A stretch of DNA of 64,000 nt from assembly GCA_001604275.1 (NCBI GenBank), contig LVBD01000037.1, positions 1-64,000 on the forward strand. The letters are read 5' to 3'. Position numbers and translations under genes: made by a program. The stretch is from Spirochaetales bacterium Spiro_02. GTDB lineage: Bacteria; Spirochaetota; Spirochaetia; Sphaerochaetales; Sphaerochaetaceae. The notes beneath the pieces were generated by a model. It did no database searches. It was not told the origin of the DNA and worked only from the letters and a program-made list of their open reading frames with translations. Below are positions 6,012 through 11,533 of this stretch, in pieces. The stretch's first letter is position 1. The number at the start of each line of letters is the position of its first letter.

Positions 6012-7184
6012 TCAGTACCCCCGCTTTTTCCATATTTCCCTCAGTTTCAACAGATTTTCACCGGCGGCGACAAGGGTATCTTCTTTCTTGGCGAAATGGA
6101 AACGTATCAGATGCGTAACCTTTTCCCGAAAAAAGCTCGAGCCTGGAACGGCTGCGACCTTTACTTCCTTGGCAAGCCACTCGCAGAAGCGGACATCATC
6201 GCTGCCATCGAATTCAGAGATATCCACAAGCACATAGTAAGCTCCTTGCGGTCTGGTATAGGTCAAGCCGGCCTTATCCAAATACGATAGAAAGACATCC
6301 CTCTTGGAAATATAACTTTCCAGAAGATCATCATAATAGCTTTGCGGCTGTACAAGCCCCGCGATAGCCGCTTCCTGCAGAGGAGCCGCGGCCCCCACCG
6401 TCAGAAAATCATGGACTTTCTTTACCACATCGAGCGCCTCAGCAGGGCCGATTACATAGCCAAGTCTCCAGCCCGTTATTGAGTATGTCTTTGAAAGACT
6501 GCTCGTGCTCAGCGTCCGCTCGCGCATACCAGGAAGCGATGCGAAATATACATGTTCCGCAGGAGGGAATACGATATGCTCATATACTTCATCGGTAATG
6601 ACCCAAGTATCGTACTTCTCAGCTAAAGAAGCAATGTATGTCAGCTCGGAACGGGTAAAGACCTTTCCCGTGGGGTTTGAAGGATTACAAAGAATGAGAG
6701 CTTTCGGCTTCTGGGCAAACGCAGCATCAATGGCTCTCTTTTCAAAATCGAAATTCGGTGGATTCAAAGGGACGTACAGAGGAATTGCTCCGCTGAGAAT
6801 GGCATCCGCACCATAATTCTCATAGAACGGAGAAAAGACAATCACTTTATCCCCAGGATTCACGACGCTCAGCATCGCGGCCATCATTGCCTCTGTTCCG
6901 CCGCACGTTACAACGATATTCTTGTCGGGATCTATCGGGATTCCCATGAAGCGTTCTTGTTTTTTCGCCAGCTTCTCCCGAAAGACGGACGACCCCCAAG
7001 TGACGGCATACTGATGGGGCCCTTCAAAGGCGATTTTTGCCAGGGCCTCCTGCAAAGCCTTCGGAGGATCGAAATCGGGAAACCCTTGGGAAAGATTGAT
7101 CGCACCATATGTCTGGGCAACCCTTGTCATACGGCGAATAACCGATTCCGTAAACCCGTGGGTCCTTGTACTTGTAGTAGGCAT
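6012..7184 (-). CDS. class I/II PLP-dependent aminotransferase
   Basis: This is a fold-type I cytosolic aminotransferase of 390 residues, the usual size. It opens with the conserved INLSQGFPDFDPP segment. It has the YAVTWGS substrate loop, NPSNPTGKVF and ITDEVYEHIVF around the cofactor, the Schiff-base lysine in STSSLSKTYSITGWRLGY (about residue 235), and the arginine of LIRFHFAKKEDT that binds the substrate carboxylate. The pattern is closest to the methionine/kynurenine-glutamine transaminase group, which uses 2-oxo acid acceptors; the exact substrate is inferred only loosely. Its ATG overlaps the stop of the upstream dehydrogenase (TAATG), so the two are translationally coupled. Confidence 0.85.
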   Translation of the reverse strand: MPTTSTRTHGFTESVIRRMTRVAQTYGAINLSQGFPDFDPPKALQEALAKIAFEGPHQYAVTWGSSVFREKLAKKQERFMGIPIDPDKNIVVTCGGTEAMMAAMLSVVNPGDKVIVFSPFYENYGADAILSGAIPLYVPLNPPNFDFEKRAIDAAFAQKPKALILCNPSNPTGKVFTRSELTYIASLAEKYDTWVITDEVYEHIVFPPAEHVYFASLPGMRERTLSTSSLSKTYSITGWRLGYVIGPAEALDVVKKVHDFLTVGAAAPLQEAAIAGLVQPQSYYDDLLESYISKRDVFLSYLDKAGLTYTRPQGAYYVLVDISEFDGSDDVRFCEWLAKEVKVAAVPGSSFFREKVTHLIRFHFAKKEDTLVAAGENLLKLREIWKKRGY

Positions 7185-8302
7185 TATTTGATCCTCCTCC
7201 TAGCATTCGTTGCATGCGTTTGTGGGAAATCTTCAACCTCAAGAATCGCGTCCCGCAACCGGGAAGCATCTACAGGAAATGGCAGAAGATGAATGGATTC
7301 ATGGGGAACAAGCGTCGCGGCAATGACGGCATCGATCTGGCCAGCATCCGTAGGATCGACACCCAAGTCCCTGAAGCTGACGGGCAGCCCCAACTCAATG
7401 AATTTTTCGTAGAGGACTTCGAGTCCGTCCTTGTCATGTTCCAGTGCGCTTTGCACCAAAAGGCCGTATGCGACTTTCGTTCCATGAAGTTTGTCATGCG
7501 TTGCAGGCAATACGGACATCCCGTTATGCAGGGCATGGGCGGCTGCGACCCGTGTGTACTTCTCTCCAAGCCCACCGACAAGACCTCCTCCGGCGACGAT
7601 GGCATCAACCACCTCGATAAAAGCAGAGGAGACAGTACCGGAAGCCTGATCTGAAAAGGCCTGAGCCCCCTGTGCCAAAAGCACATCCTTGATTGTCCTG
7701 GCGACCTCCAACCCCAATACCGCCGTATGCGGCAAATGGTCCACGCCTGAGGAGAGGAGCCTTGCTTCATACCACTTTGCAATTGTATCAGCAAGCCCCG
7801 CTTGAAGATAGACTGGGGGAGCCGCACAAATGATACGGGGTTCGACCAAGACAAGAAAGGCCCCTTGACGGAACATTTCATACCCAAGAGCCTTGCCTGA
7901 GCCATCATACCAGACAGACAGCGGCGTCCATGCGGCACAGGTCGCAGCGATCGTAGGAATAGCCACAAAAGGAATATCACGCTTTGCAGCCAAGGCTTTC
8001 GCAGTATCCTGGACAGAACCGCCACCAATTCCTACGACGAGCGGGACATCCTCAAAGTCCCGGGCAAGTCCATCGACTATCTCGTGAGTACAATGGTCGG
8101 TCAAAAGAAAAGAATTGGTTCGGGAATCCTGGAACACTTGTCTGATATAGGATTCGGCAGCTTCCCCTGCCCGTTTTCCATGTATCCATAATGCCGATGA
8201 AAGCTGTTCGTTCGTAAAGAAAGCAAGAAGTTTTTCCAGTGCTCCTGGATAGCTATAATAGTTAGCCGGTCCTGGTTGAATCCGAATTGCGGGATACTCC
8301 AT
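7184..8302 (-). CDS. iron-containing alcohol dehydrogenase, glycerol-dehydrogenase-like
   Basis: This is an NAD-dependent, metal-requiring dehydrogenase of the GldA/EgsA/iron-ADH superfamily, 372 residues. The NAD loop GIGGGSVQDTAKALA is at about residues 92-106. Candidate metal ligands are the Asp of GLADTIAKWYEA and the histidines of AAHALHNGM and ATHDKLHGTKVAYG, the same order as in glycerol dehydrogenase. An SD AGGAG is eight bases before the ATG. It is the first gene of a two-gene unit with the aminotransferase. An aldehyde/alcohol plus amino-transfer step on one substrate would fit, but that is inference. No transporter or pathway partner identifies the substrate. Confidence 0.8.
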   Translation of the reverse strand: MEYPAIRIQPGPANYYSYPGALEKLLAFFTNEQLSSALWIHGKRAGEAAESYIRQVFQDSRTNSFLLTDHCTHEIVDGLARDFEDVPLVVGIGGGSVQDTAKALAAKRDIPFVAIPTIAATCAAWTPLSVWYDGSGKALGYEMFRQGAFLVLVEPRIICAAPPVYLQAGLADTIAKWYEARLLSSGVDHLPHTAVLGLEVARTIKDVLLAQGAQAFSDQASGTVSSAFIEVVDAIVAGGGLVGGLGEKYTRVAAAHALHNGMSVLPATHDKLHGTKVAYGLLVQSALEHDKDGLEVLYEKFIELGLPVSFRDLGVDPTDAGQIDAVIAATLVPHESIHLLPFPVDASRLRDAILEVEDFPQTHATNARRRIK

Positions 8303-8603
8303 ATCATTATCTCCTCACAAAGAAATCATGCTTGTGTCGGAAAGCGTGTATCAAAATTGACTGTGTCTTGGAATGCTTTGGCTACTCTAGGACAATGAAT
8401 TGCAGAAATAGAATATTATGCCCTACCGGGCATCAGCATGGAAATACACATGGACGAAAGGAGATATTTTGTTGCAAACGAACTGATATTCATCTGTGTT
8501 TTCCCTTTCCTGCAACAGACAGCAGGTTGATGTGAGAATAACAAAAGTCCCGTATATATGCAATCCTCCATGATTTTTTTCTCTCAAACGATGAAAACGA
8601 TAC
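8303..8603. other. 300-bp divergent intergenic region
   Basis: It lies between the divergent dehydrogenase gene and the methionine-importer promoter. I see no gene, repeat or strong hairpin here. It should contain the leftward promoter for the dehydrogenase-aminotransferase pair, but no convincing hexamer pair was found. Confidence 0.5.
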
Positions 8604-8633
8604 TTGACAGAGACAAGTTCAATTTGTGATAAT
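8604..8633 (+). promoter_or_regulatory. sigma-70 promoter for metQNI and its leader
   Basis: A perfect -35 TTGACA (8604-8609) is followed after 18 bases by GATAAT (8628-8633); TGATAA with a 17-base spacer is the alternative. The predicted start is near 8640, about 20 bases before the leader ORF and 240 before metQ. Confidence 0.75.
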
Positions 8634-8660
8634 CGCTGTCATCACACGACGGAGGGAGTT

Positions 8661-8735
8661 ATGAGAGACATTTCGAACTACATCGCTCATTGCAATTCCT
8701 CCGTTTCCATGATGTGCTACATGATGATGCGCTGA
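8661..8735 (+). CDS. Met-rich leader peptide upstream of metQNI
   Basis: This is a 24-codon ORF starting 20 bases after the predicted transcription start. A strong SD, GGAGGG (8651-8656), lies four bases before its ATG. The peptide starts MRDISNYIAHCNSSV and ends SMMCYMMMR, so five of the last eight sense codons are ATG and one more is Cys. This is the layout of a classical attenuator leader, where the codon cluster reads the supply of the charged tRNA for the amino acid handled by the downstream genes. The final Met codons and stop lie in a stem-loop: TGCGC 8728-8732 with GCGCA 8739-8743, plus outer ATGAT 8721-8725 with ATCAT 8747-8751. Regulation by methionine is inference from position and codon content. 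Confidence 0.7.
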   Translation: MRDISNYIAHCNSSVSMMCYMMMR

Positions 8736-8873
8736 AAAGCGCACATATCATACTACCCCCACGACATTTCCATTGTATTTTGAGCGATCGGCCCTGAGAT
8801 GTTTTCCCTCGGATGGATATATTTCTCCGTTCGGAGTGAATCATTTCATTCAAAACTATACGAAAAGGGTATG
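8682..8873 (+). promoter_or_regulatory. leader RNA with alternative pairings ahead of metQ
   Basis: Several mutually exclusive pairings are visible in the 5' leader. CGGAGG of the leader SD (8650-8655) is complementary to CCTCCG inside the leader ORF (8698-8703). ATCGCTCA (8682-8689) is an exact complement of TGAGCGAT (8781-8788). The weak metQ SD and ATG region, GGGTATG (8867-8873), can pair with TACCC (8754-8758) or CATAC (8749-8753), both just after the leader stop. No U-rich terminator hairpin is clear, so control of metQ translation is as likely as transcription attenuation. No SAM-I riboswitch or T-box signature was seen. Confidence 0.45.
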
Positions 8874-8877
8874 AACC

Positions 8878-9738
8878 ATGAAAAAAACCATCAGATATTT
8901 TCTTACAATCGCATTGCTTGTTTCCAGTGCATCGGTACTTTTCGCCGGAGGGGCAAAAGAAGTTTCCGCTCCTACCACAAGAAAGGATATTCGTATCGGG
9001 ATCAGTCCGGGACCGTACGGAGACATGATTACACAAGCAATCGCTCCATATCTTGAAAAGAACGGGTATACCGTATCGGTCGTCCAGTTCTCCGATTATG
9101 TCCAGCCGGACCTTGCGTTGAATAACGGTGAGATCGAAGCGAACCTGATGCAGCATACTGTATATCTGAATCAATTCTCCAAGGACAACAACCTGAGCCT
9201 GTCACCGGTCATTGTGGTTCCGACCGCAGGCGCAGGAGTGTTCAGCTCCAGATACACCAGCCTCGACCAGTTGAAGAACGGAGATCAGGTGGCGATCCCA
9301 TCAGATGCGACGAATCTTGCCCGCGCGCTTGGTATTCTTGCCAGATATGGTCTCATTACGGTGAAACCGGACGTAGAAGCGACAAAGATTTCGCTACTCG
9401 ATATCGCGTCCAATCCGAAAAACCTGCAGTTCAAGCCGTTGGATGCCGCACAGATCTCCAGAAGTCTGGACAGTGTGGCGATCGGAGTGGTTCCTGGCAA
9501 CTTCGCAATAGCTGCCGGCATGGACTTTTCAAAAGCATTGGCTATCGAGAAGTTGGCGGAAAACTACAAGAATGTCGTGGTTGTCAGGACAGTCGATCTG
9601 AACGCCCAGCTCGGACAGGATTTGAAGGCGGCAGTAGAATCTCCGGAGTTCTATGATGCCATTACCAAGGAGGGCAGCCAGTTCGGCAGTTTCGATCGCC
9701 CCCAGTGGTGGGTGGACACATACGGCGAAGGAAAATAA
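8878..9738 (+). CDS. metQ: methionine ABC transporter substrate-binding protein
   Basis: This is an NlpA/MetQ-family periplasmic receptor that captures methionine for MetNI, 286 residues. The family signature is clear: RIGISPGPYGDMITQAIAPYLEKNGY, LNNGEIEANLMQHTVYLNQF, and IPSDATNLARALGILARYGLI. The signal peptide (MKKTIRYFLTIALLVSSASVLFA then GGAKE) has no Cys at the cleavage site. Unlike the lipoprotein MetQ of enterobacteria, this one is therefore probably soluble in the periplasm or retained another way. It is the first structural gene after the Met-rich leader. Its own SD is weak (AAGGG), which suits control by the leader. Confidence 0.92.
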   Translation: MKKTIRYFLTIALLVSSASVLFAGGAKEVSAPTTRKDIRIGISPGPYGDMITQAIAPYLEKNGYTVSVVQFSDYVQPDLALNNGEIEANLMQHTVYLNQFSKDNNLSLSPVIVVPTAGAGVFSSRYTSLDQLKNGDQVAIPSDATNLARALGILARYGLITVKPDVEATKISLLDIASNPKNLQFKPLDAAQISRSLDSVAIGVVPGNFAIAAGMDFSKALAIEKLAENYKNVVVVRTVDLNAQLGQDLKAAVESPEFYDAITKEGSQFGSFDRPQWWVDTYGEGK

Positions 9739-9830: not shown

Positions 9831-10865
9831 GTGAGTGGAAATATGCCAAGACCTGTCATTGAGCTCAAAGATATCAATGTGAATTTCTCGCATGCCGGAG
9901 GGACGTTGCATGCCGTATCTCATGTAGACCTGACCATCATGGAAAATGAAATATTCGGGATCGTCGGACCGAGCGGAGCCGGGAAGAGCACGCTGGTACG
10001 GGTTATCAATCTTCTCCAGCAACCGACCTCCGGCCAAGTCATCATCGATGGACAGGATATCACATCGTTGCGGGGAAGCGCATTGAGCCAAGTGCGACGA
10101 CGAATCGGGATGATTTTCCAGCACTTCAACCTGATCGGAGGCGCTACGATAGCCAAGAATGTCGCGTTCAATCTGAAAGCCGCAGGTTGGAAATCTTCCG
10201 ATATTCCCGCCCGAGTTTCCGAGCTTCTTGAGCTGGTCGGGCTACAGGACAAGAGCGACGTCGACCCGTCGCAACTATCAGGCGGGCAGAAACAACGGGT
10301 GGCTATCGCACGGGCGCTGGCGAACAACCCGAGCATCCTTCTGTGCGATGAAGCGACCAGCGCTCTGGATCCGGAGACCGCGGAAGAGATCGTGACGATC
10401 TTGCAGGATATCAATCGCAAGATGCATCTGACGATCGTATTCATTACTCATCAGATGGATATCGCAAGAAAATTGTTCGGGCGGATCGCCGTAATGGAAA
10501 AAGGTTCCGTTGTCGAGGTGAACGATACCTATACGTTGTTCACGGAGCCGCAGCATGAATCTGCGAAAAAACTTGTGGCCAGAGTCATGGATATCGGGGT
10601 CCCTCCTGAACTGCAACGGCATCCTGATGAGATCCTCTTGAAAATCAGTTATGTGGGTGAACGCGCTTATGATCCGGTTATCAGTACCGTGATCAAGACG
10701 TACGACGTCGATCTGTCCATCATCCATGGAAAGATCGAATATATCGACAACAAACCATTCGGAATCCTCCTGGTCACTCTCCATGGGAGTAAAGAAGCCA
10801 GGGATGCCGCTCTTGCCTACTTGCAGGCGCATACGCATCATGTCGAGGAAGTATCGGAGGGTTAG
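9831..10865 (+). CDS. metN: methionine ABC transporter ATP-binding protein
   Basis: This is the ATPase that powers methionine import with MetI and MetQ, cytoplasmic at the membrane. Walker A is GPSGAGKST, the Q-loop is IFQHFNL, the signature is LSGGQKQR, Walker B is ILLCDEATSALD and the switch His is in FITHQ. After the ATPase domain a C-terminal NIL domain (about residues 265-340, ILLKISYVGERAYDPVI onward) is present. In MetN this domain binds methionine and inhibits transport. I chose the GTG at 9831, giving 344 residues, because GGGAG ends five bases before it. The ATG at 9843 has a poorer SD. The longer open frame upstream is not MetN-like and crosses the terminator. Confidence 0.92.
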   Translation: MSGNMPRPVIELKDINVNFSHAGGTLHAVSHVDLTIMENEIFGIVGPSGAGKSTLVRVINLLQQPTSGQVIIDGQDITSLRGSALSQVRRRIGMIFQHFNLIGGATIAKNVAFNLKAAGWKSSDIPARVSELLELVGLQDKSDVDPSQLSGGQKQRVAIARALANNPSILLCDEATSALDPETAEEIVTILQDINRKMHLTIVFITHQMDIARKLFGRIAVMEKGSVVEVNDTYTLFTEPQHESAKKLVARVMDIGVPPELQRHPDEILLKISYVGERAYDPVISTVIKTYDVDLSIIHGKIEYIDNKPFGILLVTLHGSKEARDAALAYLQAHTHHVEEVSEG

Positions 10866-10873
10866 GAGCAAAT

Positions 10874-11533
10874 ATGGAACAGACTATCAACATTCTCAAA
10901 CAATATCTCGGCAAGGCGATGGGAGAAACGGCGCAGATGGTGTCCATCGCGATGGTGGCATCCCTCCTACTTGGAACACTGATCGGATTGATCCTATATG
11001 TTACAGAGACTCCCCTGCTCGTCCAGAACAAGTTTGTCAACCGAATCGCTGGCGTGGTTGTAAATGTCATTCGTTCGGTACCGTTTGTCATTTTACTTGT
11101 AGTTCTCATCCCGCTGACAAAAATCATTACTGGCACGACCATCGGTCCGATTGCCGCCTCGGTTCCTTTGTCGTTCTCCGCAATCGCATTCCATGCGCGT
11201 CTGGTGGAGGGGGCTTTCACCGATGTAGATACAGGAGTCCTGGAATCGGCGATCGCCTCGGGCGCCCCTCTGCATCTGGTTTTGTCGGATGTAGTGTTTG
11301 TCGAATCCCTTCCCGGCCTGATCAGGGCCATTACGGTGACATTCGTAAGCCTGGTCGGGTATTCGGCCATGGCGGGCATAGTCGGCGGCGGTGGCATCGG
11401 AGACCTGGCTATTCAGTTCGGATATTATCGGTACGAAACGGGAGTGATGGCTGTCACGGTGATCCTGCTTGTCGTCATTGTCCAGATCGCCCAGGTAATC
11501 GGGGATAAGGTAGCCGCCCATTTCATGAGATGA
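10874..11533 (+). CDS. metI: methionine ABC transporter permease
   Basis: This is the inner-membrane permease of the MetNI importer, 219 residues with about five transmembrane helices. The family-typical N-terminus (GETAQMVSIAMVASLLLGTLIGLILY) and IRSVPFVILLVVLIPLTKIITGTTIGP are followed by the EAA coupling loop (EVE-type GLIRAITVTFVSLVGYSAMAGIVGGGGIGDLA). It starts eight bases after metN, so the two are cotranscribed. The end of the operon has no strong terminator. A weak hairpin, TGTGC/GCACA (11581-11600), is the nearest structure. Confidence 0.93.
   Translation: MEQTINILKQYLGKAMGETAQMVSIAMVASLLLGTLIGLILYVTETPLLVQNKFVNRIAGVVVNVIRSVPFVILLVVLIPLTKIITGTTIGPIAASVPLSFSAIAFHARLVEGAFTDVDTGVLESAIASGAPLHLVLSDVVFVESLPGLIRAITVTFVSLVGYSAMAGIVGGGGIGDLAIQFGYYRYETGVMAVTVILLVVIVQIAQVIGDKVAAHFMR

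Follow-up and report, generated by a model that had tools for sequence, protein, structure and literature searches.

The metQNI methionine-importer operon in the window (the whole stretch of 64,000 nucleotides analysed here) is preceded by a short Met-rich open reading frame (ORF) that we read, with good confidence, as a methionine-responsive leader-peptide attenuator. Comparative sequence analysis points to a leader that latches itself, with termination in the spacer ahead of metQ, probably by Rho, as its output, and to a family of such leaders across many Sphaerochaetaceae. A sequence-only reading had placed the DNA among the spirochaetes, which is correct, and had proposed ribosome-mediated control of the importer by methionine supply, which the presence of the leader in about 70 family genomes now strongly supports.

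The upstream region of metQNI is compactly organized. The consensus promoter noted in the sequence-only reading is a sigma-70-type promoter on the plus strand (TTGACA-18-GATAAT, 8604–8633); it agrees with the consensus at 11 of 12 positions and carries a TG before the −10 box (extended −10), and the four closest relatives likewise have TTGACA 5′ of the leader. The Shine–Dalgarno sequence (SD) GGAGGGAG (8651–8658, plus strand) precedes the leader ORF MRDISNYIAHCNSSVSMMCYMMMR (8661–8735, plus strand), whose 24 codons run from the ATG at 8661 to the TGA at 8733–8735. The five ATG and one Cys codon (TGC) ascribed to its final eight codons are exact. No other of the 829 short ATG ORFs in the window (10–45 codons) contains at least four Met in its last eight codons, and among simulated ORFs the count was 0 of 10,185. 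The Met clusters, ATG ATG TGC TAC ATG ATG ATG (8709–8729, plus strand), are the presumed stall sites. Just 5′ of them, the leader codons include an anti-SD, CCTCCGT (8698–8704, plus strand), which forms 7 bp with ACGGAGG (8649–8655, plus strand), the segment that contains the leader SD; we refer to this helix as the latch.

The stop codon of the leader sits in the loop of a hairpin, TGCGC-TGAAAA-GCGCA (8728–8743, plus strand; arms 8728–8732 and 8739–8743), which was absent from the sequence-only reading. It is followed by a C/U-rich, G-poor and unstructured tract with a CCCCACGACAT box (8744–8778, plus strand), a candidate rut site. Downstream, the three genes of the methionine importer proposed earlier are all identified on the plus strand: metQ (8878–9738; PF03180, 5.9e-68), metN, encoding an ABC ATPase with a NIL domain (9834–10865), and the permease gene metI (10874–11533). 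The metQ product is a divergent MetQ-type substrate-binding protein that stays under the curated cut-offs of MetQ models and has MetQ structures as its best PDB relatives. A lipobox cysteine is seemingly missing from the MetQ signal peptides (8878–8950 in the window, and the starts of metQ in relatives), though the Pfam family is named for a lipoprotein.

The sequence-only reading had named absence of the ORF from relatives as evidence against itself. Instead, a Met-rich leader ORF, usually ending in MMMR-stop or MMMPxRA-stop, is kept in about 70 of 139 Sphaerochaetaceae genomes, roughly 70–160 nt 5′ of metQ or, occasionally, of metN or an oligopeptide importer. A close orthologue of the divergent metQ is present in only four other family genomes (62–76% identity); all four carry an SD-started ORF of 23–27 codons about 120–140 nt 5′ of metQ, which ends in MMMR-stop, the hairpin TGCGC-(stop..)-GCGCA enclosing the stop codon in its loop. 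The arrangement ATGATGATGCG...GCGCA before metQ is confined to these four and the window genome. Scanning upstream of the canonical metQ genes (about 35% identical) revealed in many family members a leader ending in MMMP(V/A/G)RA-stop. The pattern ATGATGCCC-N3-6-GGGCAT is found in 69 of 139 family genomes, and its reversed control in none; nearly all matches form the in-frame 3′ end of an SD-started ORF and are followed by a signal-peptide-bearing metQ. Because this collection pattern fixed the stem letters ATGCCC/GGGCAT, stem conservation in that subtype arises partly by selection; stem variants outside the fixed letters exist (L183 and L292, for example). Two intermediates (L029 and L161) combine ATGCCC-TGAG-GGGCAT with a stop codon in the loop (MMMP-stop). 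The leader-to-metQ spacer has a median of 102 nt and a range of 70–160 nt, and is never shorter than 70 nt. Pleomorphochaeta sp. JB015 is a member of the window's family, and L013 and L039 have identical sequence upstream of metQ.

The leader also fronts other operons, namely metNIQ (L235) and genes for an SBP_bac_5 protein with DppB/DppC-type permeases (L236:1380–5001 and L237:1318–5001). In L233, L234, L245 and L246 the MetQ-like halves occur in reversed order (profile positions 99–236 first, the N-terminal half second); MetQ seems to be circularly permuted in these four, and a Met leader precedes each. Pattern matches in viral contigs lay in coding frames and had no leader, and the motif matches L238–L244 were dropped for want of an SD-started leader. 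Where the relatives checked have metI directly 5′ of metQ, the upstream stretches examined contain no leader; in these relatives the operon often lies just behind a 5S rRNA gene, and in several leaderless genera (L175–L178, L180, L181, L185, L186, L188 and L189) the metNIQ region lies directly 3′ of rRNA genes (5S, some LSU). Outside the phylum, none of the metQ loci L040–L118 has the leader, and the actinobacterial metQ loci examined contain no SD-started Met-rich ORF.

A second leader, also absent from the sequence-only reading (8416–8493), lies on the minus strand of the window. Its ORF, MNISSFATKYLLSSMCISMLMPGRA (8493–8416, minus strand), was found by covariance models that it did not train: R1, built on the leader end, matches 8388–8464 on the minus strand (E 8.5e-6 in the window), and R2, trained without window-type leaders, gives the minus-strand leader an E-value of 9.3e-7. 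R2 also finds L012 (1.4e-5), L013 (0.0014) and L011 (0.0017), and matches the plus-strand leader of the window weakly (E 0.077). The second leader has an SD-like GGAAAGGG (8510–8503, minus strand) able to pair with CTCCTTTC inside its ORF, and a stop hairpin ATGCCC-GGTA-GGGCAT (8418–8433, minus strand); its Met clusters are at 8431–8451 on the minus strand. By sequence, both leaders of the window can be assigned to one Sphaerochaetaceae leader family. When the covariance model was run on a class sample of 395 genomes, 12 genera had matches at E ≤ 0.1, including four weak ones outside the family (E 0.03–0.09) that were taken as noise; in that sample, real matches appear to be confined to Sphaerochaetaceae. 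The promoter region of the second leader (minus strand, about 8525–8565; TTGCATAT...ACTTTT..TATTCTCA) is similar to that of L027, which suggests a promoter type in common.

The first gene behind the second leader encodes a YbdH (HcxA) homologue (7184–8302, minus strand), which scores 454 bits against the equivalog model NF007880 (cut-off 429), which we take to be the YbdH model. It is followed by a homologue of the methionine aminotransferase gene ybdL/mtnE (6012–7184, minus strand); the best PDB match of its product is E. coli YbdL (1u08, 2e-82), and methionine aminotransferase models score below their cut-offs. The E. coli genes ybdH and ybdL (mtnE) have MetJ sites in common, and both were raised by knock-out of the metbox (PMC3228920). 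The two back-to-back leaders in the window thus appear to front two methionine operons, given the ybdH/ybdL homologues behind the second one and MetJ control of the E. coli pair.

Alignment of the family reveals a common anatomy. A GGAG/GGAGG SD is located ahead of 67 of 69 non-redundant leaders, and Met makes up 33% of leader residues, the start excluded (67 non-redundant leaders). Met occupies codon positions −7/−6/−5 in 58–70% and −2/−1/0 in 84–100% of leaders, positions −1 and 0 being fixed by the search pattern. The two codons between the clusters, typically Ser-Ser, constitute the anti-SD. The pairing of the leader SD with leader codons, which the sequence-only reading had pointed out, is real and covaries (8649–8655 with 8698–8704 in the window): in one common register 85% of anti-SD positions pair with the leader SD, and compensatory alternatives occur at the same columns (GC/AT/GT, AT/GT/GC and CG/TG/AT). 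An SD and anti-SD from one leader pair better than swapped ones (z −9.1, permutation p 0.0005, a value that overstates independence since the sequences are related) and better than shuffles (z about −2.3). These swap and shuffle tests, like the folding, composition and terminator tests below, were performed with our own scripts, and the relatedness of the sequences bears on all permutation values.

The stop hairpin holds the last Met codon at the stop and comes in two subtypes, TGCGC/GCGCA and ATGCCC-NNNN-GGGCAT, in which the inner pairs are exchanged (G-C:G-C versus C-C:G-G). A formal covariation count on a MAFFT alignment is weak for this hairpin because the six-base loops of the MMMR-stop leaders were misaligned and the collection pattern had fixed the stem. 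The tract behind it contains on average 1.0 G in 25 nt, compared with 5.7 in the background (69 leaders), with YC steps above background; it is less structured than shuffles and avoids complementarity to both the leader SD and the hairpin. Of the 69 leaders, 25 contain a CACnACAT-like box, versus 1% of background. A small hairpin that lacks a U-run lies about 40 nt 5′ of metQ in many leaders, and the leader coding region itself is G-poor. The rho gene is present in the window genome and the four close relatives. The family displays the general marks of a leader peptide (an SD-started ORF, clustered Met codons, conservation and Met-handling target operons) together with a tnaC-type arrangement, a C-rich, G-poor, unstructured segment 3′ of the leader stop and enough space for Rho to terminate transcription.

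The Met clusters and the nature of the targets make it very probable that the leader senses methionine supply, and, given the importer function, expression is expected to rise when Met is short. The conserved anatomy of the family and the second leader ahead of the ybdH/ybdL homologues strongly support a methionine-responsive leader. We infer the following sequence of events. A ribosome would translate the short ORF and, when charged elongator Met-tRNA is scarce, stall on the Met clusters near its end, and metQNI expression would rise. With Met plentiful, a quick first passage would allow the leader SD to be locked by the leader's own codons, so that one round of translation leaves the leader closed and ribosome-free; a stalled ribosome would cover the anti-SD and keep the leader open and occupied. 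With no ribosome on the leader, transcription would most likely end within the 70–160 nt spacer; the probable agent is Rho, working from the G-free C/U tract with possible help from the stop hairpin, and stalled and queued ribosomes filling the leader would prevent this. The G-poor coding region may form part of the Rho loading site.

The output is thus probably relief of premature termination, most likely of the Rho type. For the Rho step the evidence is compositional; Rho-dependent termination of ribosome-free transcripts would fit the latch, the single-stranded G-free tract, the spacer of at least 70 nt and the rho gene, which are conserved or present. Several points sit awkwardly with the scheme. 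Rho could load downstream of the stalled ribosome, in which case the stall is not obviously a block; this is its weak point. A shortage of Met also depletes initiator fMet-tRNA, a complication for any sensor built on Met codons. The leaderless genomes with metI directly 5′ of metQ and the weak match of R2 to the window leader likewise speak against it, as do the 36 of 69 stop hairpins that pass a lax terminator test. The scheme in its full form, in which fast passage closes the leader after a single ribosome and exposes the Rho site, shortage of Met-tRNA keeps the leader open, and the whole makes up a protein-free cis-acting methionine regulon for import, peptide uptake and salvage, is accordingly tentative, and we lean slightly against its being right in every part.

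An alternative output, which we consider unlikely, would retain the same Met sensor and dispense with Rho: the stop hairpin and its U-rich tail would act as a weak, possibly NusA-assisted intrinsic terminator whose 5′ arm is blocked by the ribosome. In a lax terminator test (the hairpin plus at least 5 T in 8), 36 of 69 leaders pass, compared with 3 expected from whole-region shuffles, and the last Met codon is part of the 5′ arm in all leaders. However, the stem has just 5–6 bp, the 5 nt behind it are A-rich so that the U-rich part begins about 5 nt late, and the window leader has no terminator-like site at all; RNA polymerase is also expected to be past the stop hairpin well ahead of the first ribosome's arrival. 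No convincing intrinsic terminator was found in the spacer. A classical trp/his-type attenuator was rejected, there being no terminator at the window leader and no covarying alternative pairing.

Control at the level of metQ translation is less probable still. In an erm-type scheme, leader sequence would mask the metQ start unless a ribosome stalls. Minimum-free-energy folds of L011 and L013 do pair the Met codons with the metQ start, which a simulated stall frees by about 8–9 kcal/mol, and the leader anti-SD is complementary to any SD, that of metQ included (z about −1). A metQ start freed by stalling is nevertheless absent in the window leader, L010 and L012, leaving a convincing switch in two of five sequences, and across the 69 leaders cognate leader–metQ pairs do no better than swapped ones, so that erm-type sequestration of the downstream SD, or any translational sequestration of metQ as a common mechanism, was rejected. 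The spacer avoids the metQ start: its complementarity to the start region falls below that of swapped spacers (z +3 to +4), contrary to the pairing of the metQ SD/ATG with bases just after the leader stop that had been drawn from the sequence. The other long-range pairing drawn there, 8682–8689 with 8781–8788, is present in the window letter for letter (ATCGCTCA/TGAGCGAT) and is treated as chance, having no support in the family, where pairing between early leader codons and the tract further down is not enriched (a small sample, n=26). As neither pairing shows signs of conservation, classical sequestration of the ribosome-binding site is unlikely. Pairing of the leader with the distal spacer or the CACnACAT box was not enriched over shuffles or swaps, and the idea that the leader SD covers the C/U tract was discarded, their pairing being weaker than in shuffles.

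We give little credence to an arrest peptide that binds free methionine or S-adenosylmethionine (SAM) in the exit tunnel, in the manner of TnaC, in place of a sensor of Met-tRNA supply. A stop codon that closes the Met cluster, with a C-rich tract right behind, resembles the arrangement in tnaC. But the C-terminal residues vary by subtype (MMMR, MMMP, MMMPVRA and MMMPFWA) and track the hairpin, not any peptide motif, Met alone being constant, and it would be strange for a substrate to induce its own importer. That the ORF is incidental, and the hairpin and tract a ligand-binding RNA or a site for a protein or sRNA, is very improbable: the stop hairpin and the CACnACAT box are conserved as nucleotides, but other residues vary around a preserved frame, SD and set of Met codons, the Met clusters stand as a pair at fixed codon positions, and the scanned leaders have no Rfam match.

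SAM riboswitches and T-boxes, named in the sequence-only reading as the usual devices of the group, fare differently from each other. No SAM-I riboswitch was detected in 8 genomes, and a T-box was matched once per genome in 10 family genomes, elsewhere than at the leader. A sub-threshold T-box-like match in the window genome (G000, C3:41241–41534, minus strand) is on a different contig from the leader. Both devices were rejected for the leader itself, where neither had a covariance-model match, and no Rfam family matched in the window, L032 or L029. For a family lacking SAM-I riboswitches in the genomes tested, the attenuator proposed here is a candidate methionine-control system, and the covariance model provides a search tool for further members. 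Control of a leader by Met is awkward in principle, Met being also the initiator residue; the family makes directly testable whether a Met-codon sensor works and how elongator rather than initiator Met-tRNA is read. If the proposal is true, a protein-free methionine regulon that acts in cis extends across a spirochaete family and is defined by a self-locking attenuator, of which the window genome has two divergent copies.

Among known systems, the open literature yielded one precedent for a Met leader peptide, and description elsewhere is possible. Streptomyces lividans metL is a proposed leader peptide, MSTTSDRTPATEATTTPGARCMCRRMCAF, before metNIQ, and its termination device is not known (PMC8079986). 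It resembles the spirochaete leader in being a short ORF with late Met codons upstream of a methionine importer, with no Rho-independent terminator found; it differs in being a single-genome proposal with a leaderless start and three late Met codons. The SD latch and the MMM-hairpin-stop arrangement belong to the spirochaete family and not to metL. A comparative study of actinobacteria found no conserved RNA structure for methionine operons and described a Cys leader for which Rho was suggested as the mechanism (PMC1262725). These mycobacterial and propionibacterial cys leader peptides have Cys codons near the stop, no terminator hairpin and a suggested Rho-dependent termination, but they concern another amino acid, their polyY motifs are described as not conserved, and no SD latch or stop hairpin is described for them (PMC1262725).

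In E. coli tnaC, a rut site lies behind the leader stop. The spirochaete leader is similar in having a leader stop followed by a C-rich, G-poor tract and a spacer of at least 70 nt; tnaC is unlike it in sensing free Trp and turning on a catabolic operon, whereas the spirochaete leader is expected to be a starvation sensor. Termination at tnaC is Rho-dependent (PMC8429421, PMC3902921). With the attenuators of the trp, his, leu, thr and phe operons the spirochaete leader shares a run of the operon's own amino-acid codons late in a short leader; it lacks their classical exchange between a 2:3 antiterminator and a 3:4 terminator, its SD is sequestered by its own codons, and its amino acid is also the initiator. 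In erm-type attenuators the leader SD region pairs with leader codons, and a stall is expected to open the pairing. The spirochaete family has this leader SD–codon pairing in common with them, without conserved sequestration of a downstream SD. The spirochaete leader is thus best viewed as a variant within known leader-peptide attenuation, and would represent a widespread, sequence-defined Met version of it.
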